From assembly GCF_900115755.1 (NCBI RefSeq), contig NZ_FOXQ01000001.1, positions 372,001 to 436,000 of the forward strand: a stretch of DNA of 64,000 bases, written 5' to 3'. The translations under genes and the position numbers were made by a program. Each line of letters begins with the position of its first letter. The first letter of the stretch is position 1. The notes below the pieces were generated by a model. The model saw only the letters and a list, made by a program, of their open reading frames with translations. It made no database searches and was not told the origin of the DNA. This stretch comes from Parafilimonas terrae (GTDB taxonomy: Bacteria > Bacteroidota > Bacteroidia > Chitinophagales > Chitinophagaceae). This document shows positions 1 through 21,393 of the stretch, one piece after another.

Positions 1-1957
1 TATCCTTACTTAAAATGCCACTTGCATACAACTGGTAAGGCAGCGGGTTTGCTGGTTTAGTCCCGGGCTCCTGCTGCGACATCAAGGATGAAGATGACGG
101 ATCATGATTAATTTGCTGTATTTCTGTACCGGTTAATTTTTTAAAGTTCGATGGCTCTTCTTTAAATTTTGCGTTATAAATCGTTTCAACAAATGGGTCT
201 CTTTTCAAAAAAGGCAACCGTTCCTGTTCTTTTTCATCAAAAACAGTAAACGCCGAAGTAAGATTTCCGCAAACGGCACGGCGCCATTCACTGATATTGG
301 TTTCCTTTATATTCTTCTTAAATTTCTTATTTAAAAATTCTTCGAGGAATTGCAGGGAAGAAGTGTGATCAAATACCTGCGAGCAAACTTTTCCGCCGCG
401 GCTCCACGGCGAAGCAATAATCATCGGCACCCTGAAACCCAGGCCAACAGGGCCGCCACGAGCTTCTTTTTTAGATATGCCATCACGAAGTTCATTTTCA
501 AGCCGTATATGCTCCTCACCTGTGTTATTAATGCCCGGCGAGCATTTGCCGGTTAAAGGTTCTTTATGATCAGGTGCAATAAAAGGCGGAACATGATCAA
601 AATAACCATCGTTTTCATCATAAGTGAGAATGAAAATAGTTTTCTTCCATACATCAGGATTTTTGGTAAGTATATCCAACACCTCTGAAACCAGCCAGGC
701 GCCGTACCAGGGTGCGCTCGGATGATCGGAAATATTCTGCGACGGCACCAGCCATGAAACCGTGGGCAATTTACCGGTATCAACATCCTGCCTGAACTGG
801 TAAAGCACATCGCCTTTGGGAACGGGCAACTCACGATCCACCCCATTATCATCATATTTTAATGTGGTTAGCTCATGATATTCCGGATCGGCGGCGTTCG
901 TGCTAAATGCCTTGTTATAAATATTTTTTTGATAAGAAGATAACTTTTCAAAATTTTCAGCGCTCCATTTTTGCAACTGTTCTTTTGCGCTGCCTAATAC
1001 TTCCTTCTTTTTTGCAATATCCTTTTGCAGCTTATCGTAATTTTTATCAGTTGAAGATGTAGCCGAAAGCTTGCTTTCCAGCTCCGTTATTTCCTTTGGA
1101 AGTGTTTCAAGCTGCTTTTGCAGGCTTTGCACATACCGGGGATAAAAGCGCACATTATATTGTGCTAAAAACTCCAGCGGGTTACAACCGAAATTAGACA
1201 GCCATGCCCGTTCATCGCCGGTAAAACCGCCGCCGGCCGTAATATCATTCTGATATACTTTCCAGTCTATTCCATTTTCTTCCAGCCTTTCAGGAAAAGT
1301 TTTCCAGCGTGCTTCACCATAAGGTATTTCATTTCTTATGTAAGCCTTTGAAGTATCGTTTTTTTCTTCGCGTATGGTGCCTCCCCAAAGAAACAGGCGG
1401 TTGGGCCAGGTGCTTGTCATGGCCGATGCAAAATGCTGGTCGCAAACTGTGAAAGCATCAGCCATTGCATAATTGAAAGGAAGGTCTTCACGGGTGTAAT
1501 GCCCCAGTGTAAGTGGCATATCCGCATATTTTTGATTGCCTGATCTTTTTGCATCCAGCCACTTGTCATACTTTCCCCGGTTATCGGCATCTACCTGGCT
1601 GGAACGCGAATGCGGCACAGAGCCCATCCAGGTTATTTTTGTATCGCGAATATCAAAACGGAATGGCGAATAAGTTTCGCCTGCTTTATTGGATTGCAGC
1701 CACACCAGGTTTTTATCGGGCAATGTTATAGCTCTCGGATCATTAAACCCGCGAACGCCCCGCAGCATACCAAAGCAATGATCGAAAGAACGGTTTTCCT
1801 GCATTAGTATTACAACATGTTCCGCATCAAGGAAACTGCTGCCGGGCTGCGGATCTATAGCAACGGCACGTGTAATAGAAGCATGCAGCTTACCGGAAAG
1901 GCCTGCTGCGCTGGACAGCATGATTGCATTTTTAATAAAGTTTCTTCTTGTATTCAT
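1..1957 (-). CDS. Phosphocholine-type phospholipase C, Tat-exported (C-terminus beyond the left edge)
   Basis: The frame stays open from an ATG at 1957 to the left edge, about 652 codons, so the C-terminal part is missing. The N-terminus has a twin-arginine signal (TRRNFIK followed by a hydrophobic stretch), predicting folded export. The phosphoesterase core shows ENRSFDHCFG near residue 55 and YDENDGYFDHVPPF in the middle, both hallmarks of the bacterial phospholipase C / acid phosphatase family. The last visible part (NPLPYQLYASG) fits the start of the C-terminal domain repeats of the phosphocholine-specific subfamily. Members cleave phosphatidylcholine or sphingomyelin to diacylglycerol or ceramide plus phosphocholine. 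The gene lies last in a SusC/SusD and glycerol gene run, so a role in releasing glycerol-containing products is inferred. The exact substrate cannot be read from the sequence. Confidence 0.9.
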   Translation of the reverse strand, partial: MNTRRNFIKNAIMLSSAAGLSGKLHASITRAVAIDPQPGSSFLDAEHVVILMQENRSFDHCFGMLRGVRGFNDPRAITLPDKNLVWLQSNKAGETYSPFRFDIRDTKITWMGSVPHSRSSQVDADNRGKYDKWLDAKRSGNQKYADMPLTLGHYTREDLPFNYAMADAFTVCDQHFASAMTSTWPNRLFLWGGTIREEKNDTSKAYIRNEIPYGEARWKTFPERLEENGIDWKVYQNDITAGGGFTGDERAWLSNFGCNPLEFLAQYNVRFYPRYVQSLQKQLETLPKEITELESKLSATSSTDKNYDKLQKDIAKKKEVLGSAKEQLQKWSAENFEKLSSYQKNIYNKAFSTNAADPEYHELTTLKYDDNGVDRELPVPKGDVLYQFRQDVDTGKLPTVSWLVPSQNISDHPSAPWYGAWLVSEVLDILTKNPDVWKKTIFILTYDENDGYFDHVPPFIAPDHKEPLTGKCSPGINNTGEEHIRLENELRDGISKKEARGGPVGLGFRVPMIIASPWSRGGKVCSQVFDHTSSLQFLEEFLNKKFKKNIKETNISEWRRAVCGNLTSAFTVFDEKEQERLPFLKRDPFVETIYNAKFKEEPSNFKKLTGTEIQQINHDPSSSSLMSQQEPGTKPANPLPYQLYASGILSKD

Positions 1958-2028
1958 ATCAGAAATTGATTTTTTTTGAGCAGCAGCAGGGAGGCTCAAT
2001 TTATACTATTTTTTTTCATTGTCGCAGG

Positions 2029-2105
2029 CTTAAGAAACACTCAATATCCAATACACAATAATCAATGCTCAATTGTACCCCCGCAAAATGAATACTGAAT
2101 ATTTC
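2029..2105. repeat. AT-rich intergenic repeat, copy A
   Basis: This segment begins CTTAAGAAACACTCAATA and ends GCAAAATGAATACTGAATA. It aligns along its length with 53429-53540, which has the same blocks in the same order plus an extra piece of about 22-26 bases in the middle. It lies in the 184-base gap between the SusD gene and the phospholipase C gene. No protein is coded here. It looks like a dispersed, non-autonomous intergenic repeat. Confidence 0.6.
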
Positions 2106-2141
2106 AAAGAATCTAAACCTAAGCCAACGACATTGCTATTT

Positions 2142-3710
2142 TTAATAACCGGGGTTTTGCTCAAGCGCAGGATTTAAATCGGTTTGTGTTAATGGAACAG
2201 GCCAGAAATAATCCCGTGCGGCATCAAATGTTCTTATTTCTATCTGGCTTCCGTCATACGTTTTGATTGGAGCGTTTAAAACTGATTGCGCCGTTTTCCA
2301 GCGGCGTATATCGTTATAATATAACCCTTCGCCTGCTAACTCAATCCTTCGCTCATATCTTATGATTTCTCTCAGTTCCGATTGCGGGTATGTTTCGGCA
2401 ATACCAGGCATACCGGCGCGTTCCCTCACGGCATTAATTGCTGCATACACCGATGCATCCGGGCCAGTTGCTTCGTTCTGGGCTTCGGCGTACATTAACA
2501 GAACATCAGCATAGCGCAAAATGATAAAATTTGTTTCAGACTGGCCGGATTTTAAATCCGATTGACCTTCAGGCGCAGGGCCCTTATCATAAATAGTATA
2601 TTTTTTCATCCCGAAACCGGTTACGGCAAAACGATCATTTGTAACAGGAACTTCCATTAATGTATCGCCAGGGAAAAAGATAGTACCATACAGGCGTGCA
2701 TCCCTGTTAGCATAAGGTTTGGCAGGATCATAACCTGAAGCAGGATCAGTAATTGGCAGGCCGTTATTCATCTGGTAAGCCTGAGCCAGGCCGAGTAAAG
2801 GTGCATTGGTATTATATTGTTTTCCAATCAGGTCAAAAGAGGTGCCAAGGCCAGGAAAAATATATTGTACGTCGAAGATCACCTCTTCATTATTCTCATT
2901 TTGCGGAAGGAATAATTCACGGTAATTATCATATAACCCATAACCGGCTTCTGTAAAATCCATTACGGCTTTGGCCGCAGCAGCGGCTGCTTGCCATTTT
3001 GCCGCATCGTTTGAAGTATTGAATAAGGGGCTTGCCTCATACAATAAAATACGGGCTTTTAATGCCAGTGCGGCGCCTTTGGTGGCCCGCCCAATATCAC
3101 CACCCGTATATTTTGCGGGTAAAACCAATGCAGCGCTATCTAAATCTTTTATGATTTGCGCCACCACTTCTTCCCGCGGCGTGCGTGGAAGATCCGCCTG
3201 CGTTTCAAGATTCGGTTCTTCTAAAATCAGCGGCACATCGCCATAATAATTTTCCAGCATGAAATAATATAAACCGCGTAGAAAATGCACTTCGCCCTTC
3301 ATGCGGGTTTTTGTATCTGCACTCATTTCTACCTGGTCCACATTTGCAAAAAAAGCATTGCAGCGGCCAATGCCCACATAGCTATCGTGCCAGCGCTGGG
3401 CTATAATACCGCCATCGTTAGATTGCTGGCGGCCTTCGGCAATTAAATTAAAACCCATTGCGTTGCTATAATTATAAGCATTTGGCGTTGCAGTTTCTTC
3501 CCATAAAGGAGTGGCTTCGCCGCCAAACAACCCATCAGTAGTAAGCGGGTTATAACAACCAGATAATGCGGCACTCACAGCAGCCTCGGAATTCCAGAAA
3601 TTGCCTTCGTTATATTTATCTGTTGGCTGCGTGTCCAGCACATCTTTTTTGCAACTGCTTCCCGCTGCAAGCAAAATAAACAGTGCGGTTATAATTGTTA
3701 TATTCTTCAT
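2142..3710 (-). CDS. SusD/RagB-family outer-membrane lipoprotein (pair 1)
   Basis: This 522-residue protein has a lipoprotein signal (LLAAGSSC, cysteine 20). It has the SusD arrangement: an N-terminal helical TPR-like region with FLRGLYYFMLENYYGDVPLI near residue 145, and a C-terminal domain with NFIILRYADVLLMYAEA and ERRIELAGEG, ending in the common LEQNPGY. SusD proteins sit on the cell surface as a lid over a SusC channel and bind the ligand. The partner SusC ends 20 bases upstream on the same strand, so the two are co-transcribed. Phospholipase C follows 184 bases downstream. The ligand is not readable; the context suggests a glycerol- or phosphate-containing molecule rather than a glycan. 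Confidence 0.95.
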   Translation of the reverse strand: MKNITIITALFILLAAGSSCKKDVLDTQPTDKYNEGNFWNSEAAVSAALSGCYNPLTTDGLFGGEATPLWEETATPNAYNYSNAMGFNLIAEGRQQSNDGGIIAQRWHDSYVGIGRCNAFFANVDQVEMSADTKTRMKGEVHFLRGLYYFMLENYYGDVPLILEEPNLETQADLPRTPREEVVAQIIKDLDSAALVLPAKYTGGDIGRATKGAALALKARILLYEASPLFNTSNDAAKWQAAAAAAKAVMDFTEAGYGLYDNYRELFLPQNENNEEVIFDVQYIFPGLGTSFDLIGKQYNTNAPLLGLAQAYQMNNGLPITDPASGYDPAKPYANRDARLYGTIFFPGDTLMEVPVTNDRFAVTGFGMKKYTIYDKGPAPEGQSDLKSGQSETNFIILRYADVLLMYAEAQNEATGPDASVYAAINAVRERAGMPGIAETYPQSELREIIRYERRIELAGEGLYYNDIRRWKTAQSVLNAPIKTYDGSQIEIRTFDAARDYFWPVPLTQTDLNPALEQNPGY

Positions 3711-3730
3711 CTGTATATTTTTTCGTGTGA

Positions 3731-6700
3731 TTAAAATGTAATGTTTATACCACCGCTAACCGTTTTTAGCATCGGATAATGGTATATGGTACTTGCATTA
3801 AGAATTGATTCAGGATCAAATCCTTTATACTTTGAAAAAGTGAGGATGTTTTCTGCATTTACATATATAGAAACCCTGCTGATCTTTATTGCCCTTAACC
3901 ATTGTGCAGGCAACGCATAACTCAACTGTATATTTTTCATTCTTAAATAGGAGCCATCCTGCAGCCAAAAATCAGAAGACACATAATTATCATCATCCAC
4001 ATCACTTGGCGTAACCTGCGGCAGGCGGGCATTTGTGCGTTCCGGCGTCCATGAATCGGTTGCCCATTCCCAGGTTGCATTGGCGCCGTTATTGAACGGA
4101 AAGGCGAGGTTTGCTGTTGGATAAATTTTCAAACCGGATACGCCCTGGAAAAATGCATTTAAAGAAAATCCCTTATACCCTAAATCAATACCAAAACCAA
4201 AAGTGTATTTGGGTATTTGAGTAGAGGTTGATATAATCACACGGTCATCGCTGGTAATTTTATTGTCACCGTTAATGTCGCGGTATTTTAAATCGCCGGC
4301 AGTGGTAGTAGCCGTTTGAAAAGGGCTTTTATCCACTTCTTCCTGGCTTTGAAAAATACCGATAGCATCATAAATGAAATAAGAGTTAACAGGATAGCCG
4401 GCCTGGGTAATAGTGGCAAGATTGGTATTGAAACTATATAAAATTTCACCTTTTAAATCAACCACTTTATTCTTATTGTAAGAAATATTACCATTAAAAC
4501 CGTAATTAAATTCTCCGATATTATTGTGATACCCCAACGTAAGTTCTATACCGGTATTCCGCATAGAACCTACGTTTTTGCTTGGCCCGGATAAACCAAT
4601 CTGGTCAGGGATATTTACTGCCCGCAGAATATCGGTAGTATATTTTTTATAAACATCTATGCTGAAATTAATACGATTATTGAGCAAGGCAGCATCCAGG
4701 CCTGCATTGTAAGTAGTGGTTGTTTCCCAGGAAGTATTCGGATCACTGTAAGCTGTTGCAGCAGCCCCGGAAGACAATGCCCCGCCAAAGCTATAATCCT
4801 GGCCAAGATTGATTGAGTTTTGATAACTATACAAGGCTACAGCCTGGTTTCCCAGTTCTCCATAAGAAGCCCGGAGTTTTAGCAGGTTAAACACATCTTC
4901 CAGATGAAAGAAAGATTCTTTATCAATACGCCATCCGGCAGATACTGCAGGAAAAAAGCCCCAGCGTTTTCCACTGGCAAAACGGGAAGATCCATCATAA
5001 CGGAATGTTGCTTCCAACAGGTATTTTCCTTCAAAATCATAATTAAGCCTGCCAAAATAAGAGGTTAATACGTCTTCAGTAGAATTACCGCTGATATAAC
5101 CTTCATAAGGAAGCGAACCAGCGCTTATAGCAGTTAGTGTGCCATCAAGATAACCATACGATCCGCTGGAAAAAGACCTGCTGTCAAAATCATCATAACT
5201 GCTTCCAATCATTGCATTAAGATTGTGACTGCCGGCAAATGTTTTATCCCAGTCAAACGTATTGTAAAAATGAATATTTAGATCGTTGTAATCAATTGCC
5301 CTGGAGCGGGGTGCGGTGGAAGGGCTGTTCCAGTTGATCGCGGCCCCTGTTTTAGGATTGAATGTTTGCGACAGCGGCGTAAAATTTTCCAAAAGGCCAT
5401 CATATTTATCCCCGCCAAGTTTTGCCCGGTAAGTAATATCAAAAGGCAACTGGTATTCAGCAGACACTGTTGCCAGAAAACGGCTTACCACTTTTTTTGC
5501 AAACCCGGTTTCCGAAATCATCCTTGGGTTTTCCCAGTTATTCCTGCCCGGTGTGCGCAGCCAGGAATTACCATAACGCCCGTCTGCCAGCGTATCTGTA
5601 AGAATCGGGAGTGTTCGGGTTAAATATTGCCAGAAACTGTTATAATAAGGTTCGTTATAATGGCGGTAATAACCATCCAGTGTTAAGCCAACTTTTAACC
5701 GTTTACTCACTTTCATGCTGGCATTAACGCCCAGGGAATATTTCTTTTCCTGGTCGTTTGGCCCAATAATTATACCCTTACGGTCTAAATAACCCAGCGA
5801 AACACGGTATTGATATTTATCGCTGCTGCCTGAAACACTCACATCATGTTTTTGAATAACGCCGTTATCAAGCGCTATGTCAAACCAGTCGCTTGCAGGA
5901 TAAGTAAACGGATCGGTTTTCATTCCCTGCTCATATTCAGCAATATCTTCATCTGAATAATCATGCACTTTGCCAATGTTTTCAAGCGCCTGGTTTTTCA
6001 GGTTCATATATACAATAGGGTCCCAGATGGCATCGGGCATGGTAGTCGGCTTTTGAATGCCGTTATAGTAGCTGTAATTTACTTTGGAAGCACCATGTCC
6101 TGTTTTTGTAGTAACCAGTATTACGCCGTTAGCAGCCCTTGAACCATAAATAGCCGCAGAAGCATCTTTCAAAACTGAAATGCTGGCAATATCAGCAGGG
6201 TTTAATTCATCCATAGAATATTCAATTCCATCCACCAATACCAATGGGTCATTATCATTTAAAGTTCCCATTCCACGAATACGTATCGTTGCCCTGTCAA
6301 CGCCAGGCTGGCTGTTGCCGAGATTAACAAAAAGCCCCGGTGCGCCATGCAGGGCGTTGCTCACATTGGTTATGGGCTGCCCTTCTTTATCCGTCATATC
6401 AACAGTAGTAACTGCTCCGGTTAAATTTACTTTTTTCTGTGTGCCATAGCCCACAACCACTACAGAATCGAGCGCATTTACGCTGCCTTCAAGGCTTATG
6501 TTACCAAGATTAGAGCCGTTAACTTTAATTGTTTTCGGCACATACCCGGTAAGGGAGAAACTAAGTTCACTGCCTATTTCAGCACTTACAGTAAAAGTTC
6601 CATCATCTTTGGTAACTGTGCCTGAAGAAGAATTAATAACAGTTACAGTTACTCCCGGCAGAGGAGACTGGTTTTCGGCGGAAATAATTTTTCCGGTAAT

Positions 6701-6802
6701 GTTTTGTTGCTGCGCATTGAGGGGAATTTGCAGCAACGTGAAGAAGGCCATGCATACAATCAGGGGCATAAAGGCCTGCAATCGGTTCGCTGTTAAATAC
6801 AT
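3731..6802 (-). CDS. SusC/RagA-family TonB-dependent transporter (pair 1)
   Basis: The protein has 1023 residues. It has a signal peptide ending near residue 30 (LNAQ), a carboxypeptidase-D-like regulatory domain (about 33-115), the SusC-typical VVVGYGTQKKVNLTGAV box near 115-131, a plug domain (DNDPLVLVDGIEY, SVLKDASAAIYGSRAANGV), and a long beta-barrel ending in GGINITF with a terminal phenylalanine. It imports ligand across the outer membrane with energy from TonB. It is paired with SusD 20 bases downstream. Its first 130 residues closely resemble those of the second SusC in this window, which points to duplication. A hairpin in the gap upstream may give this pair its own transcription unit. 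Confidence 0.96.
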   Translation of the reverse strand: MYLTANRLQAFMPLIVCMAFFTLLQIPLNAQQQNITGKIISAENQSPLPGVTVTVINSSSGTVTKDDGTFTVSAEIGSELSFSLTGYVPKTIKVNGSNLGNISLEGSVNALDSVVVVGYGTQKKVNLTGAVTTVDMTDKEGQPITNVSNALHGAPGLFVNLGNSQPGVDRATIRIRGMGTLNDNDPLVLVDGIEYSMDELNPADIASISVLKDASAAIYGSRAANGVILVTTKTGHGASKVNYSYYNGIQKPTTMPDAIWDPIVYMNLKNQALENIGKVHDYSDEDIAEYEQGMKTDPFTYPASDWFDIALDNGVIQKHDVSVSGSSDKYQYRVSLGYLDRKGIIIGPNDQEKKYSLGVNASMKVSKRLKVGLTLDGYYRHYNEPYYNSFWQYLTRTLPILTDTLADGRYGNSWLRTPGRNNWENPRMISETGFAKKVVSRFLATVSAEYQLPFDITYRAKLGGDKYDGLLENFTPLSQTFNPKTGAAINWNSPSTAPRSRAIDYNDLNIHFYNTFDWDKTFAGSHNLNAMIGSSYDDFDSRSFSSGSYGYLDGTLTAISAGSLPYEGYISGNSTEDVLTSYFGRLNYDFEGKYLLEATFRYDGSSRFASGKRWGFFPAVSAGWRIDKESFFHLEDVFNLLKLRASYGELGNQAVALYSYQNSINLGQDYSFGGALSSGAAATAYSDPNTSWETTTTYNAGLDAALLNNRINFSIDVYKKYTTDILRAVNIPDQIGLSGPSKNVGSMRNTGIELTLGYHNNIGEFNYGFNGNISYNKNKVVDLKGEILYSFNTNLATITQAGYPVNSYFIYDAIGIFQSQEEVDKSPFQTATTTAGDLKYRDINGDNKITSDDRVIISTSTQIPKYTFGFGIDLGYKGFSLNAFFQGVSGLKIYPTANLAFPFNNGANATWEWATDSWTPERTNARLPQVTPSDVDDDNYVSSDFWLQDGSYLRMKNIQLSYALPAQWLRAIKISRVSIYVNAENILTFSKYKGFDPESILNASTIYHYPMLKTVSGGINITF

Positions 6803-6877
6803 AATTTTCGGTTTTTTTATTTGGATAATCGGAATTTTATTTCAGCATTTCTACCTTGAAATATTGAACAATAATGT

Positions 6878-6909
6878 AAAAAGGGGCCCGGCTTGTTTTC
6901 CAGGCCCGC
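6878..6909 (-). terminator. Putative terminator after the metallophosphoesterase gene, overlapping a short tandem repeat
   Basis: Read on the minus strand, GGGCC (6907-6903) can pair with GGCCC (6889-6885), and a run of five T residues follows. The stem is short, so this is only a plausible rho-independent terminator. It overlaps an imperfect tandem duplication, GGCCCGGCTTGTTTTCC at 6885-6901 and GGCCCGCTTGTTTTCC at 6903-6918. If it works, it separates the first SusC/SusD pair and phospholipase C from the upstream operon. Confidence 0.4.
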
Positions 6910-6929
6910 TTGTTTTCCGGTGCTTTTTT

Positions 6930-8153
6930 TTAACGCCGTTTGCGGCTTTCAACCGTAACATTTCCAACTTCGGTACCATCATCTCTTAACATAACCAGTT
7001 TCAATTCGCGGCTATTGGCATTTACCTTTATTATTGTTCTTTTTGATTCCAGCGGCCCGCCGCCAATAACCAGCGGGTAATGGTGCGTGGCATCATCAGC
7101 CAGATAAGTTCCATACCTGTGTGTGTGGCCGCAAATAAGCAGGTCTATCTTTCCTTTATTAAACAATGGATTGAACAACGCCCTGCAATGCATGGTTCCA
7201 TGCCAGTCGCCGGACTGATATGGGGGGATATGCATCATTACCACCCGGAAAGGTGCTTTTTTAAATGCAGGCGTTTCTATTTCTTTTGCCAGCCATTTCT
7301 CCTGTTCTTCACGGTAAGCATCAAATGCGGCAAGACCTCCGTATTCCGCATGATCGTCTTCTTTATCTTCCCCGGTATCCAGCACTACGAAATGTACCGG
7401 CCCGCGGGTAAAAGAGAAATAATAACGATTATCAGGATTTTCAAAATAGTTGTAATGGTTCCTGGCAAATACACCACGTGTTTCATGATTGCCCCTTGTG
7501 TATATAAACGGAGTTGTAGTACTGAAAATGTTTCCCAGCGGCGATAAGAGATGATCGATCATTTGCTGCTGGTTGGTTTGATAATCAAACATGTCGCCAT
7601 TCAGAAAAACGAAATCATATTTAAAATCCTTAACCAGGGAAAACAGTAAAGGAAAGGAAGCAGGACGGTCGTGTATATCATTTAATACCACCCAGGAAAT
7701 ATTATCTTCCTGTGTATCCGGCGTAGTAAAATAATATAATTCGCTCTGTTCGTCGGCCCCCCACGTTAATTTATAAGGTTGAAAATCCGAGATTTCATGC
7801 GAGCATATCCTGTAACAATATTTAGTGCCCGGCTGCAGGTTACTGAGCGTGATCTTATTAATATAATTAGCATCAATGAGGCCAATACTTGCATGGGAAG
7901 CTTTTTTATCCGGGGCTGACGTACCATATTCTACCCAGCTTTTGCAGGGTTTCCCGGTAATCCATATAACGGTACAGGCAGTCGGGCTAAGGTTTTGCAG
8001 GTAAGGCTTCGTAATAAAAAGTGCGCCCGCCGAATTTTTAACCGGTGCATCATTTTGTTCTGCAAAGTCCGGCCGGGGAAGCAGGCCTACAAGGCCTGCT
8101 TTTGTAATATCTCCTATAAAATTTCTCCGATTATATGTTGTATTTTTTTGCAT
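6930..8153 (-). CDS. Tat-exported metallophosphoesterase of the purple acid phosphatase type
   Basis: The protein has 407 residues. The N-terminus has a twin-arginine motif (NRRNFIG) and a hydrophobic segment. Residues about 45-140 look like the fibronectin-III-like domain of purple acid phosphatases (KPYLQNLSPTACTVIWI). The calcineurin-like core follows with metal-binding motifs NDIHD, FLNGDMFD, RGNHETRG, MMHIPPY and CGHTHRYG. The first motif lacks the usual D-x-H order (NDIHD instead of GDxH), but the histidines and aspartates of the other blocks are present. Such enzymes remove phosphate from organic esters in the periplasm or outside. The gene sits between two SusC/SusD pairs, 35 bases after the second SusD, so it probably acts on imported or surface-bound phosphate esters. 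The exact substrate is unknown. Confidence 0.88.
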   Translation of the reverse strand: MQKNTTYNRRNFIGDITKAGLVGLLPRPDFAEQNDAPVKNSAGALFITKPYLQNLSPTACTVIWITGKPCKSWVEYGTSAPDKKASHASIGLIDANYINKITLSNLQPGTKYCYRICSHEISDFQPYKLTWGADEQSELYYFTTPDTQEDNISWVVLNDIHDRPASFPLLFSLVKDFKYDFVFLNGDMFDYQTNQQQMIDHLLSPLGNIFSTTTPFIYTRGNHETRGVFARNHYNYFENPDNRYYFSFTRGPVHFVVLDTGEDKEDDHAEYGGLAAFDAYREEQEKWLAKEIETPAFKKAPFRVVMMHIPPYQSGDWHGTMHCRALFNPLFNKGKIDLLICGHTHRYGTYLADDATHHYPLVIGGGPLESKRTIIKVNANSRELKLVMLRDDGTEVGNVTVESRKRR

Positions 8154-8188
8154 ATCGATTATTTGAAAAGGAAAAATTTAAAAGGGGG

Positions 8189-9955: not shown

Positions 9956-9966
9956 TACTTGTTTGT

Positions 9967-12900
9967 TTAAAAGGTTAGATTAAATCCTATGTTATACACT
10001 CTTGTCTGGGGATAATAGTCACCGGCGGCATTGCTTGCCTCAGGATCCATCAGCTTAAACTTATCCCAGGTGAGCAGGTTATACCCGTTCACATAAATGC
10101 GGAAATCGTTTAATCCTCCTAATTTTTTTAATAGTGAATGTGGAAGGCTGTACCCTATTTCGAGAGATTTGAGCCTGATGTAGTTTGTGCTTCTTAAGAA
10201 ATAAGTATTGTTGTTGGTAGTCCAGTAAGTATCTCCCCTGTCAAATGTCCTCGGGCCGGAATAAGTGGCGCCGCCTGCTGCGGTCATGCCTGTAAGATCA
10301 TCGGGGTCTGGCCTCCAGCGCTGGGTTGCAAAATCTGCAAGGTAATTTCCTATATCGCCGGATTCTGTAGATACATATTGTACATCACCCGCAGAACCCT
10401 GGAAGAAAATACGGGCGCTTAGCTGTTTCCAATTCAGCCCGAGGCTTATTCCGCCTGTCCATACCGGGGTGCTGTTTTTATTAACGCGGATCCTGTCGTC
10501 AGCATTGATAATACCATTACCATCCACATCTTCAAATATTATGTCGCCGGGCCTGGCGCCATTCCAGTGCGGGTAATCTTCCACCTGCTTTTCATTTTGG
10601 AAAATGCCAATCGCCTTATAGTATAAACCGGTGCTTATCTTTTTCCCGGTAGATACCTGGTATTCCGGCGCTCCGGGCGGTTCGTCCCAGAACATAATTT
10701 TGGTAGTGGAATAACCTGCATTAAGCGAAACATTGAATGAGAGGTCATCGTTTACGCTTTGGTTCCAGGTGATATTTCCATCATATCCCCAGCTTTTTAC
10801 TTTACCAAGGTTTTCTTTTGGAAGCGTAAGCCCGGTACTTTGCGGTACAGAAGCGTTACGGGCTATTAAAATGCCGCTTCTTAACTGGTTCCAGTAATCC
10901 ACGGTAAAGGAGAGCTTATTTTTCAGCAACACACCATCGAGGCCTACATTAAACTGGTTGGCCCTTTCCCAGGTGATATAAGGATTCGCCACATAAGTGG
11001 GTTCGATATTTTGCGCTATCTGGTCTATGCCCAGCACATAGCCGTTACCAAACTGGAAGCCGCTGTAGTATTGCTGTGCTTCCACCAATGCGTTGGGATT
11101 TGTAATATCGTTGCCTGTTTTTCCCCATGAAGCTCTTATTTTCAACTCGTCCACAAACTGGATACTGTTTTTGAAGAAAGGTTCTTCAGATATTCTCCAT
11201 CCTCCCGAAAAGGCCGGGAAAAATCCAAACCTGCTGTCTTTGGGGAAAAGATAAGAACCATCATAACGGCCTACCACCTGTAACAGGTATTTGTGCCGGA
11301 ACGCATAATCAATCCTGCCAAAGTAACTTACCCTTGTACCTTTAGCGCCGGATCCGTTGTTCGTCCAGTTTTCCTGGCTGCCTGCAAACAACTCGGAGAT
11401 GCTGGTGGAGATATAATCGCGGCGAAACGCATTAAAAGTATTATCGTTAAACCGCTGAGATTCTGCACCGCCCATTAAGGTAATATCATGATCGCCAAAG
11501 GAACGTTTGTAATTAGCTACTATGTTTTCCAGTATTTTTTGCTCCTGGTAATAGGTTTGCGAAAGAGATGGATCGGAAGGCCCTGCAGAAAAAGCGGTCA
11601 GGAAACTTTCAGGGTCCTGCATATTATTGTTTATATAGGCTTGCTTATCAAAAGTGTATAAATTCCACGGCGTATTCCACACTTTTACTTCCTGGAATTG
11701 TTTGTTATAAGATAATAATCCCCTTATACTCAAACCTTCTACACCGGGTATAGTTATATCCACCGAAAGATTCCCGGTCATATAATATCGCTGATTATGA
11801 TCGTAGCCGGTGGCGGGTGTTCCGGTTACAACCGGCTGGTTGCCACCTTCCTGGTCTGGCCCCGGAAGCCCATTTGGAAAAAAGGCCGGGTCTGTAGGGC
11901 GCCCTCTAATAAGCATACGAAATATCTGGCCTGCGGATACAGTTGGGAAGTTCCTGTCTTCTTTTCTTCCACTTAAATTCAACCCTATTTTAATATTTTT
12001 AGTAACCTGGCTGGAAATATTACTTCTAATATTAAACTGGTTATAGCGGGTAGCGCTTTGTTTGTAATACCCATCCTGGGTAAGAGCCCCCAATGAAAGA
12101 AAATAAGTGAGCGCAGCAGTTCCACCCTGCACGGAGAGGTTGCCATTGGTTTGAGGTGATAAAGTTTTCAGGCCTTCTTTAAACCAGTCAGTGCTTGGGT
12201 ACAGCCAGGGATCTCTGTTGGGATCTTTATAAGCTTCAATTGTTTCTTTTGAAAACTGGGCAGTGGTGCCATGATAAATAGCCGCTTCATTAAGCATTTC
12301 CATGTAATCAACAGCCCCGGCCATTTTGGGAATGCGTGAAGGCTGGTTATATCCCTGGTTAAAATTAATCGTAACCTGTGCAGGTTGATTTTTGCGGCCT
12401 TGCCTGGTTGTAATTAAAATAACGCCATTAGCCGATTCCGAACCATATATGGAAGCAGTGGCGTCTTTAAGTACACTGATATTTTCTATATCGTTAGGAT
12501 TTATCCTTTCCAGTATTTCACTGGGCGTGGGTACGCCATCTACCACCACAAGCGGTGCATTATTGTTAAGGCTGTGGTTGCCTCTTATCAGTATAGAGCT
12601 TCCGTCCTCGCCCGGCTCGCCGCTTCCATTTATGGCTATTACGCCAGGCAACCTGCCGGCAAGTGTATTGGAAAAATTTGTTACCGGCGCTTCCTGCAGT
12701 GTTCTCACAGGAACAGTAGAAACCGCACCGGTTAAGTTTACTTTCTTTTGTGTTCCATATCCTATAACCACAACTGAATCAAGCGAAACAAGATCAGTTT
12801 CCATACTTATTACACCCAAATCGGCGCCTGAAATCTTGATTGATTTTGATACAAAGCCGGCAATAGAGAAATTGAGCGTACTGCCCATGCCGGCGTTTAT

Positions 12901-13122
12901 GGTAAAAGCTCCGTCCACGCCGGAAACCGTACCATTATTAGAATTGTCAACAGTAACAGTAACCCCTTGCAGTGGTGACTGATCAGCAGCTGAAATAATT
13001 TTTCCGGTAATGTTTTGCTGTTGTGCATAAAGTGGAGACTGTGCCATAGCCAGCATAATAAATGCAGCAAGTAGCCTCAGCACTTTCCCTTTCATTACCA
13101 AAAGTTTGATTTTGGAATTCAT
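9967..13122 (-). CDS. SusC/RagA-family TonB-dependent transporter (pair 2)
   Basis: The protein has 1051 residues. A signal peptide ends at LYAQ near residue 34; a second ATG at 13095 would give a more compact signal peptide and may be the true start. The order is the carboxypeptidase-like regulatory domain (about 36-118), VVVIGYGTQKKVNLTGAV, the plug domain (NAPLVVVDGVPT, SVLKDATASIYGSESANGV) and the beta-barrel ending in IGFNLTF. Its N-terminal region is strongly similar to that of the other SusC in the window, while the barrel differs, suggesting different ligands. It follows glpF by 210 bases on the same strand, which links this uptake system to glycerol metabolism. Confidence 0.96.
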   Translation of the reverse strand: MNSKIKLLVMKGKVLRLLAAFIMLAMAQSPLYAQQQNITGKIISAADQSPLQGVTVTVDNSNNGTVSGVDGAFTINAGMGSTLNFSIAGFVSKSIKISGADLGVISMETDLVSLDSVVVIGYGTQKKVNLTGAVSTVPVRTLQEAPVTNFSNTLAGRLPGVIAINGSGEPGEDGSSILIRGNHSLNNNAPLVVVDGVPTPSEILERINPNDIENISVLKDATASIYGSESANGVILITTRQGRKNQPAQVTINFNQGYNQPSRIPKMAGAVDYMEMLNEAAIYHGTTAQFSKETIEAYKDPNRDPWLYPSTDWFKEGLKTLSPQTNGNLSVQGGTAALTYFLSLGALTQDGYYKQSATRYNQFNIRSNISSQVTKNIKIGLNLSGRKEDRNFPTVSAGQIFRMLIRGRPTDPAFFPNGLPGPDQEGGNQPVVTGTPATGYDHNQRYYMTGNLSVDITIPGVEGLSIRGLLSYNKQFQEVKVWNTPWNLYTFDKQAYINNNMQDPESFLTAFSAGPSDPSLSQTYYQEQKILENIVANYKRSFGDHDITLMGGAESQRFNDNTFNAFRRDYISTSISELFAGSQENWTNNGSGAKGTRVSYFGRIDYAFRHKYLLQVVGRYDGSYLFPKDSRFGFFPAFSGGWRISEEPFFKNSIQFVDELKIRASWGKTGNDITNPNALVEAQQYYSGFQFGNGYVLGIDQIAQNIEPTYVANPYITWERANQFNVGLDGVLLKNKLSFTVDYWNQLRSGILIARNASVPQSTGLTLPKENLGKVKSWGYDGNITWNQSVNDDLSFNVSLNAGYSTTKIMFWDEPPGAPEYQVSTGKKISTGLYYKAIGIFQNEKQVEDYPHWNGARPGDIIFEDVDGNGIINADDRIRVNKNSTPVWTGGISLGLNWKQLSARIFFQGSAGDVQYVSTESGDIGNYLADFATQRWRPDPDDLTGMTAAGGATYSGPRTFDRGDTYWTTNNNTYFLRSTNYIRLKSLEIGYSLPHSLLKKLGGLNDFRIYVNGYNLLTWDKFKLMDPEASNAAGDYYPQTRVYNIGFNLTF

Positions 13123-13332
13123 AATTGTAATTGTAGATTTTTTTAATAAACAGTTATAGAAGAGAAATAGTTAAGCCCTTATTTGGTAGTGGCAGAACGG
13201 GTTGGAAAACCCCGGTAATGATACTGCTTGCGGACGGCACTTTTACCCCCGGCGAATTGCTTTGAATGCTCGTTGCTTGCCTGCAGACGAGCTTGGCTGT
13301 AAAATGAATGTAAAATGTAGAGTACATAGCTT

Positions 13333-14073
13333 TTATTTTGGTGAATGTTGTAAGAATAAATAAAGCGCTGCCGCAATAGCTGCGCCCGCAAAAGGCCCGA
13401 GAACAGGCACCCATGCGTATTTCCAGTGGCTGCTTCCTTTATGTTTTAACGGTAAAAATGCGTGAACAATGCGCGGGCCAAAATCCCTTGCAGGATTAAT
13501 AGCATACCCTGTGGTACCGCCCAGTGAAAGGCCGATTGACCATACCAATAATGCCACCGGCAGTGCGCCCAGCGAACCCAGGCCGATTGGCGTTTTTGAA
13601 TCAGTGATTTCTGCATTGGTAAAATAAAATACCACGAACACCAGCACAAAAGTGCCTGCCACTTCGCTCATGAAATTGAAGGATAAATTTTTAATGGCAG
13701 GAGACGTGCTGAAAGCAGCCAGCTGAGTTTCTGCATCCGGCGTTTCATCAAAATGATTTTTGTAAATAACCCACACTAAAAAAGAGCCAATCATGGCGCC
13801 GATAACCTGGGCGGCAATAAAAGACAGCACTTTCGACCAGGCAAATTTACCAGCCAGCGCCAACCCTATGGTTACAGCAGGATTTAAATGCGCGCCGCTG
13901 AAAGGCGTTGCAATTACCACACCGGCAAACACCGCAAAAGCCCAGCCGGCAGTAATCACGATCCATCCGCCGTTATTCCCCTTTGTGCCTTTAAGAACCA
14001 CATTAGCTACTACGCCATTGCCCAATAAAATCAAGATCATTGTACCGATTAATTCGGCGGCAAATTGAGACAT
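13333..14073 (-). CDS. glpF: Glycerol uptake facilitator (aquaglyceroporin)
   Basis: This 246-residue MIP-family channel has two half-repeats carrying the NPA motifs: GAHLNPAVTIG near residue 66 and YAINPARDFGPR near 200. The aspartate after the second motif (NPARD) is typical of glycerol facilitators rather than water-only aquaporins. About six membrane helices and two half-helices are expected. It lets glycerol diffuse across the inner membrane, where glycerol kinase 53 bases upstream on the same strand traps it. The gene order glpD-glpK-glpF supports the assignment. Membership in the same transcript as the SusC gene 210 bases downstream is inferred from strand alone. Confidence 0.95.
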   Translation of the reverse strand: MSQFAAELIGTMILILLGNGVVANVVLKGTKGNNGGWIVITAGWAFAVFAGVVIATPFSGAHLNPAVTIGLALAGKFAWSKVLSFIAAQVIGAMIGSFLVWVIYKNHFDETPDAETQLAAFSTSPAIKNLSFNFMSEVAGTFVLVFVVFYFTNAEITDSKTPIGLGSLGALPVALLVWSIGLSLGGTTGYAINPARDFGPRIVHAFLPLKHKGSSHWKYAWVPVLGPFAGAAIAAALYLFLQHSPK

Positions 14074-14126
14074 GAGATTTTTTTTATGGTAAACAAATCG
14101 TTATGCTTATATTATGAAAAGATTAC

Positions 14127-15620
14127 TTACACATCCGCAGCCCATGATTTACAAGCGTTTACAGCTCTCTGCCATCCCGCTATCAGTGTGGCTGAATTAT
14201 TATTTTCCGATGGCTGGAATATGCGGTCTGCAGCCCACTGCGCCTGTATCTCATCTATATTTTTCCAGAAGCCGATGGCCAGGCCGGCCAGGTAAGCTGC
14301 GCCGATAGCCGTGGTTTCCGTAATTTTTGGCCTTATTACTTCTGTGTTTAAAACATCGGCCTGTATTTGCAGCAACAGGTTATTTGCGGTAGCGCCGCCG
14401 TCAACACGCAATTGTTTAATTGTTGCTCCGGCATCGGCTTCCATTGCTTTTAGTACTTCCATGGTTTGCAGGGCAATGCTTTCCAATGCCGCCCTGGCAA
14501 TATGTTCATCTGTAGTGCCGCGGGTTAACCCAACGATCATGCCCCTTGCATGCTGGTTCCAGTGCGGTGCGCCTAACCCGGCAAAAGCAGGAACCATATA
14601 AACGCCGCCATTATCTGTAACTTTTGAGGCTTTTTCTTCTATTGCCGAAGAAGAAGAAATAATACCAAGCCCGTCGCGCAGCCATTGCACCACAGCGCCA
14701 CCAATAAAAATGCTGCCTTCCAATGCGTATTGAATGGTATCACCAATTTGCCAGGCAATGGTGGTTAATAATTTGTTGCCGGAAATGATGGGCTTATCGC
14801 CAATATTCATCAGCATAAAACAGCCGGTGCCATAAGTATTTTTTACCATACCTTTTTGCGTACACATTTGTCCGAAAAGGGCGGCCTGCTGATCTCCGGC
14901 TATTCCGGCAATTGGAATTTTAGCAGCCAGCAACTGGCCGGAAGTTTCTCCGTACACTTCACTGGAAGATTTTACCTGTGGTAATATTGATGCGGGAATA
15001 TCCAGCAGCGTTAATAATTCATCATCCCATTGCCGGGTATGAATATTAAAAAGCATGGTGCGGGAAGCGTTTGTAATATCTGTAACATGCACCTTACCTG
15101 CTGTAAAATTCCATAACAGCCAGGCATCAACAGTGCCGAATGCAAGCAAGCCTTTTTCGGCTTTTTCACGGGCGCCTTCCACATTATCTAATATCCATTT
15201 GATTTTTGTGGCAGAAAAATAGGCGTCAATTAAAAGGCCCGTCTTTTCCTGTATAAGTTTTTCTTTACCGCTATTTTTTAATTCATCGCAGATACCAGCG
15301 GTGCGCCTGTCCTGCCAAACAATTGCATTATAAACCGGCACGCCGGTTTCCCTGTCCCAGATAATTGTGGTTTCTCTCTGGTTTGTGATGCCGATGGCGG
15401 CAATATCAGTAGCATTAATCCCGGCTTTTAAAACGGCTTCCCCCAAAACCGTAGCCTGCGAAGACCATATTTCCTTCGCATTGTGCTCTACCCAGCCGGG
15501 CTGCGGGTAATATTGTGTAAACTCTTTTTGTGCAAGCGCAACAATATTTCCTGTCTTATTAAAAACTATTGCACGGGAACTGGTAGTGCCCTGGTCAAGT
15601 GCAAGAATATATTTTTCCAT
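14127..15620 (-). CDS. glpK: Glycerol kinase
   Basis: The protein has 497 residues, the usual length of the FGGY-family glycerol kinase. Visible motifs are [14 protein letters not shown] at the N-terminus (phosphate binding), [24 protein letters not shown] and [10 protein letters not shown] (glycerol site), the ATP-binding region [10 protein letters not shown], and [17 protein letters not shown] near the C-terminus. It phosphorylates glycerol to sn-glycerol 3-phosphate in the cytoplasm. The gene lies 15 bases after glpD and 53 bases before glpF, an operon for glycerol catabolism. It is probably controlled by the divergent DeoR-type regulator. Confidence 0.97.
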
Positions 15621-15635
15621 AGCAAGCGTTGAATT

Positions 15636-17249
15636 TTAATTTTTATGTATTGCCATTTTTTGATCTGTTTTCAATAAATAATTTGCTGCAAGTATTTTGA
15701 AACTTTCCAGTTGTTCTTTTTTCCAACTGGCATCTTTTTCCAGTTCACCGGCCATCAGATCTGCAACAACCGGCGCTGCATCCAGGGCCGCCGCTGCATC
15801 CAGGAATAAAAGCCGCAGCCGCCTGGCCAGTACATCTTCCACGGTTCTTGCCATTTCGTGCCGCACTGCCCATATTGCATTGGCCCAGGTATAAGGAAAA
15901 CCTTCAATGATTTTATTATTCAGCGAATGATCTTCATTTGCCAAAGCCTGGATTTTCTTATAATCGCTGCCGTAAACGGTAATGCTATAGTCGCTATTAC
16001 CTGTTACAGTTGCTGAACCATGAATGGGCAGCGCAGCCGTTTTACAGTCAGCTTTTTTAAGATGGCCTACTTCTATTGCTTTATTCACCGTTACCTCTGC
16101 CATTTGGCGATAGGTTGTCCATTTTCCCCCTGTTATTGTAATAAGGCCAGACGGGCTTACCATTAATTTGTGGTCTCTTGAAATTTCTTTCGTGCTATCT
16201 GTTTCTTTTTGCGGTGCAGCCAGCGGACGCAGACCGGCAAAAACACTTAAAACATCTTTTCTTGTTATAGCTTTCGAGAAATATTGCCGCACTGTTTTCA
16301 GTATAAAATCTATTTCTGCTTCCAGCGCCCTGGGTTCCAGCGTGTGCTTATTTAATGGCGTATCGGTAGTGCCAACCAATACGTGGTTGTGCCAGGGAAC
16401 AGCAAACAGTACCCGCCCATCTGCAGTTTCAGGGATCATCAGAGCAGCCTCACTGTTTAGAAAAGACTTATCAAAAACCAGGTGCACACCCTGGCTCGGC
16501 TGAACGATTGGTTTTTTTCCAGGCGTATCGAGACATAAAATATCATCTACAAATACGCCGGTTGCATTAATAACTGTTTTTGATTGAATGTGATAAGGTT
16601 TACCGGTTTCAATATCAGTGGCAATAACACCGCATATTTTATTATTTTCTTTAAGCAACTGGTTTACCTTAAAATAATTTAACGTAACTCCTCCATTGGC
16701 TGCGCTGGTTTCAGCAAGATTTATAGCAAGCCTTGCATCATCAAACTGGCCGTCGTAATATTCTATACCGCCAACTAATTTTTCCTGCCTGATGCCGGGC
16801 ATTATACCGGTCATCTTATTTTTACTGATATATTTTGAACGGCCGAAACTAAAACGTCCCGAAAGCCAGTCATACAATTTTAAACCCGTGAGATATTTGA
16901 TCTTATCCCAAAGGCTGTAACAGGGAATGACAAAGGCCTGTTTTTTTACAATATGAGGCGCATTTTTCATTAGAATTCCTCTTTCGCGCAAGGCATCGTA
17001 AACAAGTTTTATATTACCCTGCGCCAGGTAACGAACACCGCCGTGTACCAGTTTGGTGCTGCGGCTTGATGTTCCTTTGGCAAAATCTGATTGCTCCAGT
17101 AATAAAGTTGAGTAACCCCTGCTGGCCGCATCCACAGCAACTCCCAACCCTGTGGCGCCGCCACCTATAACAATTATGTCCCAAACCACTTGATCCTCTA
17201 ACCTTTTCAATGCCTTTTTACGATTCAGAAGCCCGTTTTCTTCCTGCAT
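15636..17249 (-). CDS. glpD: Aerobic-type glycerol-3-phosphate dehydrogenase
   Basis: The start at 17249 (MQEENGLL) is preferred. An upstream ATG at 17360 would add 37 residues rich in Phe and Leu that have no place before the Rossmann fold. The protein then has 537 residues. The FAD-binding motif DIIVIGGGATGLGVAVDAA lies near residues 23-41, followed by KGTSSRSTKLVHGGVRYL, typical of this family. The C-terminal region carries the helical cap (WAVRHEMARTVEDVLARR). It oxidises glycerol 3-phosphate to dihydroxyacetone phosphate and passes electrons to quinone at the inner membrane. It is the first gene of the glp run and is divergent from the regulator at 17420. Confidence 0.95.
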   Translation of the reverse strand: MQEENGLLNRKKALKRLEDQVVWDIIVIGGGATGLGVAVDAASRGYSTLLLEQSDFAKGTSSRSTKLVHGGVRYLAQGNIKLVYDALRERGILMKNAPHIVKKQAFVIPCYSLWDKIKYLTGLKLYDWLSGRFSFGRSKYISKNKMTGIMPGIRQEKLVGGIEYYDGQFDDARLAINLAETSAANGGVTLNYFKVNQLLKENNKICGVIATDIETGKPYHIQSKTVINATGVFVDDILCLDTPGKKPIVQPSQGVHLVFDKSFLNSEAALMIPETADGRVLFAVPWHNHVLVGTTDTPLNKHTLEPRALEAEIDFILKTVRQYFSKAITRKDVLSVFAGLRPLAAPQKETDSTKEISRDHKLMVSPSGLITITGGKWTTYRQMAEVTVNKAIEVGHLKKADCKTAALPIHGSATVTGNSDYSITVYGSDYKKIQALANEDHSLNNKIIEGFPYTWANAIWAVRHEMARTVEDVLARRLRLLFLDAAAALDAAPVVADLMAGELEKDASWKKEQLESFKILAANYLLKTDQKMAIHKN

Positions 17250-17419
17250 CAATCTATTTCTTTTAGTTTCGTTTAACTTCCATTTATGAGTGTTCAGGAA
17301 TAAAAATAGAATAAAAAAGAAATAAAAGGAAAATATTTTTAATAAAAAAGAAACTAACACCTGGTATTATTGATAATTGATATACCTAAAATTTTGTTTA
17401 TATTTAGCCTTTAAATTGT

Positions 17420-18181
17420 ATGACTAGTACAGAGAGACATCAGCTTATTCTTGAGAAATTGCACCAGGAAGGCGACCTGAATGTTATCAGCCTATATAAA
17501 GAATTAAGGGTAAGCCGCGTAACCATACGAAAGGATTTGAAACTGCTGGAAGAAAAGGGACTTCTCTTCCGTACGCATGGAGGAGCAACTCTTAAAAATC
17601 CTTATACAATCGACAGGCCGGTAAATGAAAAAGAGAAATTACAATCTGGCGAGAAATCAAAAATTGGCGCCGCAGCGGCCCGGCTAATAGATGATAATGA
17701 TTCAATTATTATCGCTTCCGGCACTACGGTGCTGGCGCTCGCCAAAAAAATTCAGAATAAAAAAAACCTAACGGTTATTACGGCCTCCTTAAATGTTGCA
17801 CTGGAACTATTACAGCAGCCCGATATTGAAGTGCTGCAGTTAGGCGGCATTTTGCGCAAAACCTCATCTTCGGTTACGGGGCCTTACGCACAAAGCATAT
17901 TGGCAGATTTTTCGTGCACCAAATTATTTTTGGGTGTGGATGGAATTGATCTTGAATTTGGCCTTAGCACCACCAGCGCCATGGAAGCGCATTTAAACAG
18001 GCAGATGATTGAAGCTTCTCAAAAGGTAATTGTGCTTTCTGATTCAACAAAATTTGGAAAGAGGGGTTTTGGAAAAATATGCGGCCTCGATAAAGTGGAC
18101 CGCATTATTACAGACGCCGGCATTTCCGAACATTTTGTAAAGCAGCTTGAAAATCTGGGAATTGAAGTAACAGTGGTTTAA
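17420..18181 (+). CDS. DeoR-family transcriptional regulator, probable glycerol regulon repressor
   Basis: The protein has 253 residues. An N-terminal DeoR helix-turn-helix (about 5-57) includes RVSRVTIRKDLKLLEEKG and the typical RTHGGA. The C-terminal sugar-phosphate sensor domain shows ASGTTVLALA, TVITASLNVA, LFLGVDGID and DSTKFGKRGF. Proteins of this kind are released from DNA by a phosphorylated sugar or polyol; GlpR responds to glycerol 3-phosphate. It is transcribed divergently from glpD with 170 bases between the starts, so control of glpDKF and perhaps the whole SusCD block is likely. The ligand is inferred from context only. Confidence 0.88.
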   Translation: MTSTERHQLILEKLHQEGDLNVISLYKELRVSRVTIRKDLKLLEEKGLLFRTHGGATLKNPYTIDRPVNEKEKLQSGEKSKIGAAAARLIDDNDSIIIASGTTVLALAKKIQNKKNLTVITASLNVALELLQQPDIEVLQLGGILRKTSSSVTGPYAQSILADFSCTKLFLGVDGIDLEFGLSTTSAMEAHLNRQMIEASQKVIVLSDSTKFGKRGFGKICGLDKVDRIITDAGISEHFVKQLENLGIEVTVV

Positions 18182-18269
18182 AAAGAAAAGGATAATTACT
18201 AAATATCTGCAATAAGACAGGTAAGCTAAACATGCATTGTTCACTTATCTTCGTTACAAAAAATTTATT

Positions 18270-18869: not shown

Positions 18870-18918
18870 TATTACGCCCTGGACTTTTATCGAAGCAATA
18901 CTCAATATTCAGCAAAAC

Positions 18919-18966
18919 AATATTCAATGGGCAATGAAAAACTTATGTAATTGCTCATTGAATATT
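18919..18966. repeat. Hairpin-forming AT-rich repeat (copy B of the CAATATTCAAT type)
   Basis: The 17-base arms 18919-18935 and 18950-18966 (AATATTCAATGGGCAAT against ATTGCTCATTGAATATT) pair with one mismatch around a 14-base loop. The word content, built from CAATATTCAAT and CTCATTGAATATT, resembles the intergenic repeats at 2029-2105 and 53429-53540. It lies just after the DUF1080 stop, so it may also stop transcription or protect the mRNA end, though a clear T run is missing. Confidence 0.5.
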
Positions 18967-19035
18967 TTATATTAACAATTAATTCTTGAGCAATTAATTA
19001 CAGGCACTCCGGTTTTTTCATAAGCATACATAAAA

Positions 19036-20118: not shown

Positions 20119-20234
20119 TCCATTAATATCCGCATACACTGCATGCATGATATTGTTGTTACAGACAGCAATACAATTCAACATTCCTTATATAAAACAA
20201 CCCCGGACTTTAAAAAAATCTGCATCACACAATC

Positions 20235-20256
20235 CTCTTTTAAAAAGAGTTTTATA
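20235..20256 (+). terminator. Weak putative terminator after the OYE gene
   Basis: CTCTTTT (20235-20241) pairs with AAAAGAG (20243-20249), followed by TTTTAT. The stem has only seven pairs, five of them A-T, with a one-base loop, so it would be weak or a palindrome with another role. Confidence 0.25.
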
Positions 20257-20312
20257 TTAGCCAAAATATATTCTATTGTAATACATCTAATGATCGCTAA
20301 ATTCTCAACATT

Positions 20313-21368: not shown

Positions 21369-21393
21369 TATAAGTCAAACAAAAGCTTATATC

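Follow-up and report, generated by a model that had tools for sequence, protein, structure and literature searches.

A SusC/SusD (SusCD) pair joined to a glycerol operon was found in Parafilimonas terrae, a member of the Chitinophagaceae, and the combination recurs across genera. The locus occupies positions 1 to 18,181 of a 64,000-nucleotide stretch of contig NZ_FOXQ01000001.1, referred to here as the window (draft genome coordinates C32:372001-436000; 4,985,410 bases in total). It comprises a DeoR-family regulator divergent from glpD-glpK-glpF, two SusCD pairs, a metallophosphoesterase and a phospholipase C (PLC). SusCD systems are usually taken to be glycan importers. For one of the pairs, SusCD1, comparison with relatives gives strong support for an association with glycerol-phosphate catabolism; the gene content, the synteny, the clade specificity and the tight spacing in relatives were observed directly. 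With moderate confidence, we infer a scavenging operon that is regulated by glycerol, directed at carbon and used for glycerophosphodiesters or phospholipid fragments, a reading that extends to the ligand, the order of reactions, their location in the cell and their regulation.

One genome per species was searched for SusD1 homologues, the query being six aligned SusD1 proteins (four of them glp-linked), and the loci of the best 80 of 278 relatives were compared. The closest relative of the window SusD1, with approximately 80% identity, comes from a metagenome-assembled genome (L092), in which the order SusC1-SusD1-GDSL-GDPD, that is, with a GDSL esterase and a glycerophosphodiester phosphodiesterase (GDPD), is found on a short contig. 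Among the family genomes, homologues of at least 57% identity were found at five places, one each in G018, G030, and G014 and two in G071, and three of the five lie by glpD. The order in G018 is PLC-SusD1-SusC1-glpD, regulator, glpK-glpF, with a GDPD and a HAD hydrolase past the PLC. G014 carries a Phosphodiest-family (PF01663) enzyme, SusD1-SusC1-GDPD-glpD, regulator, glpF-glpK, and G030 has SusD1-SusC1-glpD-regulator on a short contig.

The arrangement regulator, glpD-glpK-glpF-GDPD-susC-susD is present in thirteen Chitinophaga loci and one Pontibacter locus. From glpD to susD, the gaps in Chitinophaga locus L097 measure 51, 11, 49, 42, and 11 bp, and seven further Chitinophaga loci are spaced alike, apart from a few wider gaps or missed frames. 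This tight spacing makes one transcript likely in those loci. PafA homologues follow in seven loci, six from Chitinophaga and one from Thermoflavifilum; the one in L096 scores 788 bits against the PafA equivalog model (cut-off 650). SusCD1, PLC, GDPD and glp genes stand together in two Arachidicoccus loci, while two Olivibacter loci contain GDPD, HAD and GDSL genes (L108 by Pfam). The best solved-structure match of the HAD enzyme has an E-value of 4e-6, and none of the 32 PDB chains matching SusD1 is named for a phospho-ligand. The synteny check put forward in the preliminary description of this DNA thus comes out in its favour: across genera, exported phosphoesterases and glp genes are repeatedly linked to a SusCD pair. 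In Pontibacter (L093, Hymenobacteraceae), the SusD1 is 80% identical to that of the window and accompanies a glp-GDPD operon, which suggests horizontal transfer.

A quick maximum-likelihood tree with SH-aLRT as its only support measure was built from 79 of the 80 loci and the window SusD1, with SusD2 as the outgroup; L122 was left out of the tree and tables by a length filter. The window SusD1 falls into a clade of 33 rows with an SH-aLRT of 95, of which 22 including the window are labelled glp-linked, seven regulator only, two none, and two lie on cut contigs. The 32 clade relatives differ markedly from the 47 loci outside: a regulator of at least 50% identity is found in 27 versus 1, glpD, glpK or glpF near SusD1 in 21 versus 1, an exported GDPD or PLC in 22 versus 4, and phosphatase-type genes in 11 versus 1 (Fisher p from 5e-15 to 1e-4 with relatedness ignored; shortened loci were kept and scored as absences). 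In the two Sphingobacterium members labelled none (L125 and L126), a GDPD gene and an FGGY kinase gene lie close to SusC1; for L125, Pfam assigns one GDPD and two FGGY kinases. GDPD occurs in 22 of the 32 clade relatives and PLC in only 4 of them, so that glycerophosphodiesters are the best-fitting class of substrate. These had been named as an alternative in the preliminary description. Most of the sister clade of SusD1 is associated with DUF6528 proteins; in L123, which belongs to it, the stretch has glp genes at its edge. A DUF6528-type protein stands near SusD in much of this sister clade and also in a few glp-linked loci; L099, L103, L112, L123, L128, L134, and L150 are among the loci that carry one.

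The regulator scores below the cut-offs of the GlpR models, with 126.5 against 331 for PRK10906 (DeoR/GlpR family) and 182.9 against 300 for haloarchaeal GlpR; its best NCBIfam model is AgaR, with 255.9 bits just below the cut-off of 260. The earlier label "GlpR-like" is therefore sound as to the DeoR family and the position divergent from glpD, and the name GlpR applies by position only. An 18-bp motif, approximately TTNGTTTCGTTTTATTTC, is common to the regulator-glpD and regulator-susC1 intergenic regions and is a candidate operator of the regulator, judged from its conservation. It reached 288.5 bits in 15 of the 29 intergenic sequences, several of them from one genus, against 214.7 (standard deviation 4.6, maximum 223.4) in 20 dinucleotide shuffles. 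In a set of eight sequences, approximately one per genus with two from Chitinophaga, it reached 143.5 against 125.5 (standard deviation 3.1), and none of 40 shuffles scored as high. Further operator copies before susC2, susC1, and PLC were considered and rejected, since the best scores in these gaps were matched by 26, 73, and 5 of 100 shuffles, respectively, preserving base composition only.

Two of the enzymes are affected by the edge of the window. The PLC frame of 872 amino acids has its first ATG at window position 1957, crosses the window start and ends at C32:371381, 620 bp outside. Its in-window part scores 625 bits against the cut-off of 580.25 for TIGR03396, the equivalog model of phosphocholine-specific PLC, and the full frame taken from the genome carries PF04185 and a C-terminal PF05506. 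The preliminary description was thus right about the family, from a gene cut by the window edge. It had also reported no lipase that would free glycerol, and here it erred because the edge hid a GDSL gene: an esterase of 223 amino acids is encoded on the same strand, 23 bp after PLC. In the PDB it is closest to 7pzg and to 6njc, the latter being named sialate O-acetylesterase or lysophospholipase L1.

A genome-wide neighbourhood check covered all 93 glpD, 62 GDSL, 14 metallophosphoesterase, and 50 near full-length PLC places, with a binomial chance of 0.0055 when relatedness is ignored. Among GDSL homologues of at least 57% identity, 8 of 12 lie within 12 kb of glpD, compared with 0 of 50 at lower identity. 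For SusD1 the figure is 3 of the best 40. SusCD1 and the GDSL esterase are true partners of glp, and PLC is a weaker one. The PLC query has a match in 57 of 147 family genomes. Among 40 fetched PLC loci, which include the source genome's own second PLC, the adjacent region holds glpD in two (G018 and G124); in a further one (L063), homologues of the regulator and, more distantly, of the kinase are present. The idea that PLC defines the system was rejected because it seldom lies near glpD or directly after a SusD and is rare in the clade relative to GDPD. In L107 (C. terrae) and L116 (C. silvatica), a separate set made up of a PLC and SusD- and SusC-like genes occupies 11.7-19 kb and is oriented convergently to the glp-SusCD1 operon. 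The PLC of Arachidicoccus ginsenosidivorans (L094, 12092-14649) consists of two matching pieces that overlap in different frames, indicating a broken gene or a sequencing error.

Several observations weigh against the proposed operon. Chitinophaga accounts for 20 of the 32 clade relatives, so that the clade counts are not independent. In seven Chitinophaga members (L100, L102, L110, L112, L124, L127, and L135) the regulator is divergent from susC1-susD1, and no glpD, glpK, glpF, GDPD or PLC was found within the stretch. The regulator was not found in 5 of the 32 clade relatives; the stretch stops before its expected place in L092, L119, and L130, and does not in L125 and L126. Near full-length PLC homologues lie near glpD in only 2 of 50 cases, and PLC directly follows SusD in 3 of 40 loci, which makes it a weak partner. 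The window operon also lacks the GDPD usual in the clade. Finally, gaps of 210, 127, and 184 bp precede susC2, susC1, and PLC, and with no clear operator copy within them a single transcript at the window locus is only putative.

The features of the locus are compiled in the table below. Family matches in Pfam and NCBIfam hold for every gene named in the preliminary description, each at the given place and on the given strand. Glycerol kinase, glycerol-3-phosphate dehydrogenase and glycerol channel genes stand side by side as in a glp operon; the glpD frame is open to 17360, with an ATG at 17249. SusC1 and SusC2 both score above the TIGR04056 and TIGR04057 cut-offs, and each stands beside a SusD, as in SusCD (RagA/RagB) systems. 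No glycoside hydrolase or lyase was detected among the locus genes scanned, as had been reported for the former. The metallophosphoesterase and the PLC carry NRRNFIG and NTRRNFIKN, respectively, which we take to be twin-arginine translocation (Tat)-type starts. The gene grouping of the locus exceeds chance. Scans returned 45 promoter-like sites against an expected 41.4 (standard deviation 6.5) and 32 terminator-like sites against 23.0 (standard deviation 5.5).

Table. Features of the glycerol-linked SusCD locus; positions refer to the window unless the contig is given.
Feature	Position	Strand	Basis
DeoR-family regulator, divergent from glpD (GlpR by context)	17420..18181	+	PF00455, PF08220
Candidate operator of the regulator	17263..17280	.	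14-31 bp before glpD ATG; shared 18-bp motif
glpD, glycerol-3-phosphate dehydrogenase	15636..17249	-	PF01266, PF16901; PRK12266 303 bits, cut-off 360
glpK, glycerol kinase	14127..15620	-	TIGR01311 739 bits, above cut-off
glpF-type MIP channel	13333..14073	-	PF00230; TIGR00861 above cut-off
SusC2	9967..13122	-	TIGR04056
SusD2	8189..9955	-	PF07980, PF14322
Metallophosphoesterase, purple-acid-phosphatase-like	6930..8153	-	PF00149, PF16656; PDB purple acid phosphatases E 3e-6
SusC1, conserved glp-linked TonB-dependent transporter	3731..6802	-	TIGR04056 892.7 bits; synteny
SusD1, conserved glp-linked surface lipoprotein	2142..3710	-	PF07980, PF14322; clade of 33 rows, SH-aLRT 95
Phosphocholine-type PLC, continuing outside the window to C32:371381	1..1957	-	TIGR03396, PF04185, PF05506; PDB phospholipase C 9gye E 9e-108
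GDSL esterase, outside window	C32:370686-371357	-	PF13472; PDB lysophospholipase L1 7pzg E 7e-52

SusC2, SusD2 and the metallophosphoesterase sit between glpF and susC1, in the position of GDPD in many relatives. None of the best 28 SusD2 homologues and none of the 14 metallophosphoesterase homologues lies within 12 kb of glpD, so that these three genes look local and are probably a local addition. The best SusD2 homologue (G018, 69%) is located 1.8 Mb away from the glp-SusCD1 locus of that genome. Nine of the 14 fetched metallophosphoesterase loci were read; two of them, L172 and L175, have the homologue behind a SusC/SusD pair and lack glp. The cut contig of clade member L130 counts against a local addition and for the earlier inclusion of these genes: behind SusCD1 it carries a metallophosphoesterase and a second SusC/SusD pair with 36% identity to SusC2/SusD2. 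The whole 18-kb set as one conserved unit was rejected, as no relative examined joins close homologues of SusCD2 and the metallophosphoesterase to glp. From the earlier interpretation, the glycerol-linked SusCD1 and the glycerophosphodiester substrate are retained, and SusCD2 and the metallophosphoesterase are withdrawn as conserved parts.

The loci homologous to SusC2/SusD2 (L077-L080) have, by eye, alpha-N-acetylglucosaminidase-like, mutarotase-like and two GH29-like neighbours. Both flanks of the window locus (window 18237-23043; L001 4672-14467) carry genes of the 3-keto-glycoside type, including two PF06439 3-keto-disaccharide hydrolases, two cytochromes c, two PF01261 TIM barrels, two GMC oxidoreductases by Pfam with a third similar one, a gluconate dehydrogenase subunit 3 and a Gfo/Idh/MocA gene. 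SusC2/SusD2 might serve this flanking pathway. Past the GDSL gene, a Gfo/Idh/MocA gene on the other strand, followed by a major facilitator superfamily (MFS) and sugar-isomerase-like group, was taken as the border of the locus. Elsewhere in the source genome, one GDPD above the cut-off was found away from the locus at C23:15706-16365, one PafA above the cut-off on C15, and a second glpD on C36 without SusCD in the stretch (L225).

A second SusD family is also found beside glpD. The survey comprised 40 of the 93 glpD places in the family, mostly from the top of the list, with five already-seen places omitted and the source genome's second glpD included. SusC or SusD genes occur in 13 of the 40 loci. 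In ten of them (L199, L201, L206, L207, L209, L210, L214, L217, L219, and L222) SusC comes right behind glpD or is separated from it by GlpT, and the accompanying SusD is homologous to that of L207, a member of the separate family PF12771. These ten stretches, several of which end early, contain MetallophosN/C enzymes (7), GDPD (5), GDSL (3) and GlpT (2), and two more GDSL genes lie just past them in G104 and G039. The window GDSL is 67% identical to the GDSL of the L207 operon (G091). GlpT of L199 passes TIGR00712 with 728.7 bits (cut-off 632.55), and its presence in this lineage suggests glycerol 3-phosphate as a periplasmic product. Second-family SusD proteins lie within 12 kb of glpD in 12 of the best 52 cases with the seed included; as the seed was found because it stands beside glpD, the fair count is 11 of 51. 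A DUF5689-like protein is present in all ten loci, and a weakly similar one stands behind SusD in Sphingobacterium L125 and L126. It is tentatively suggested that Bacteroidota have at least twice, with PF07980/PF14322 and with PF12771 SusD proteins, put SusCD under a glycerol regulator for bulky glycerol-phosphate carbon from other cells. Phospholipids or teichoic acid polymers would then be the targets, and a class of non-glycan SusCD set by a catabolic regulon might exist, an idea held just as tentatively.

In the proposed scheme, SusC1/SusD1 would bind a glycerol-phosphate compound, either a phospholipid fragment or a glycerophosphodiester, at the cell surface and import it. PLC would cleave off the phosphorylated head group and the GDSL esterase would strip acyl chains, while GDPD in most clade relatives would free glycerol 3-phosphate. 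Phosphate may be removed by PafA, HAD or MetallophosN/C enzymes in relatives, and in the source genome possibly by the local metallophosphoesterase or the distant PafA. Glycerol taken up via GlpF would be the substrate of GlpK, and GlpD would oxidise the phosphorylated product. Repression of the unit by the divergent DeoR regulator is predicted to last until glycerol 3-phosphate, or a signal related to it, is present.

The rival explanation that survives best, although unlikely, takes the ligand to be a glycerol-phosphate polymer such as Gram-positive teichoic acid. SusCD would import oligomers excluded by porins, the GDSL esterase would trim ester substituents and GDPD would yield glycerol 3-phosphate. 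SusCD normally serves oligomers, and small glycerophosphodiesters might cross porins; moreover, sets of GDPD, GDSL and phosphatase genes are equally compatible with a polymer and with a lipid. The Chitinophaga GDPD matches 5t91, which we take to be the B. subtilis GDPD, with an E-value of 4e-16, but it matches 3ch0, presumably the Cytophaga GDPD, far better (E 1e-58), so that the former match carries little weight. A phosphocholine-type PLC is unexpected for such a polymer, and none of the enzymes that recur in the operons, as far as their genes were scanned or read, is of the peptidoglycan or amino-sugar type; Amidase_2 beside SusD1 in L127 and a similar protein in L110 (by reading) are both on the opposite strand.

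A slightly less probable explanation is a phosphate-starvation system of the PusCD type, in which phosphate would be the purpose and glycerol a by-product. The main text of PMC8115612 describes SusCD pairs that occur with phosphodiesterases and phosphatases and are induced when phosphate is low, but the operon studied here adjoins a DeoR/Glp-type regulator with glpDKF, and neither an extracytoplasmic function (ECF) sigma factor nor FecR was found among the ten locus genes scanned. That ordinary glycan SusCD pairs adjoin the glycerol operon by chance is plausible for SusC2/SusD2, given the sugar-type neighbours in L077-L080, and is in keeping with the DUF6528 ties of the SusD1 sister clade, but it is very improbable overall, since glpD is repeatedly found linked to SusCD1 and also to a second family of SusD.

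The scavenging operon proposed here shares features with several known systems. E. coli glpTQ represents a glp regulon with GDPD, and the likeness extends to glycerol 3-phosphate catabolism, a DeoR-family regulator, the exported GDPD of relatives and the GlpT seen in two second-lineage loci; loci of the window type differ in adding an outer-membrane SusCD and an exported esterase, PLC and phosphatase. Pseudomonas PlcH acts in phosphatidylcholine catabolism, where a phosphocholine-type PLC likewise feeds glycerol metabolism, but the PlcH system is not known to include SusCD. Polysaccharide utilisation loci also combine SusC/SusD with exported hydrolases and a regulator, whereas the hydrolases of the window locus are predicted to act on phospho- and acyl-esters. 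The closest precedent is PusCD of Flavobacterium, found via low-phosphate induction, in which, as far as the main text of PMC8115612 goes, SusCD is combined with phosphodiesterases and phosphatases. In both cases phosphodiesterases and phosphomonoesterases replace carbohydrate-active enzymes (CAZymes), none of which was found among the locus genes scanned. The PUSI layout described there includes an ECF sigma factor and a pf16670 enzyme (PMC8115612), neither of which was detected among the scanned genes of window 1-18181, where the locus adjoins glpDKF and a DeoR regulator instead. The words "glycerol" and "glpQ" do not occur in the main text of that paper (PMC8115612). Since PusCD complexes have already been published (main text of PMC8115612), the earlier statement that a SusCD system for such a ligand would be new was overstated. 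It holds for the glycerol-linked form in so far as no account of a glycerol operon with an attached SusCD pair was found in the open PubMed Central literature, among the matches listed.

With one regulator, one SusCD pair and a few enzymes, the operon forms a small, testable set. If the proposal is true, a glycerol-regulated class of SusCD systems for phospho-glycerol compounds would alter the annotation of such loci. Chitinophaga and its kin would be credited with a defined means of drawing carbon from lipids or cell walls, releasing phosphate in the process.

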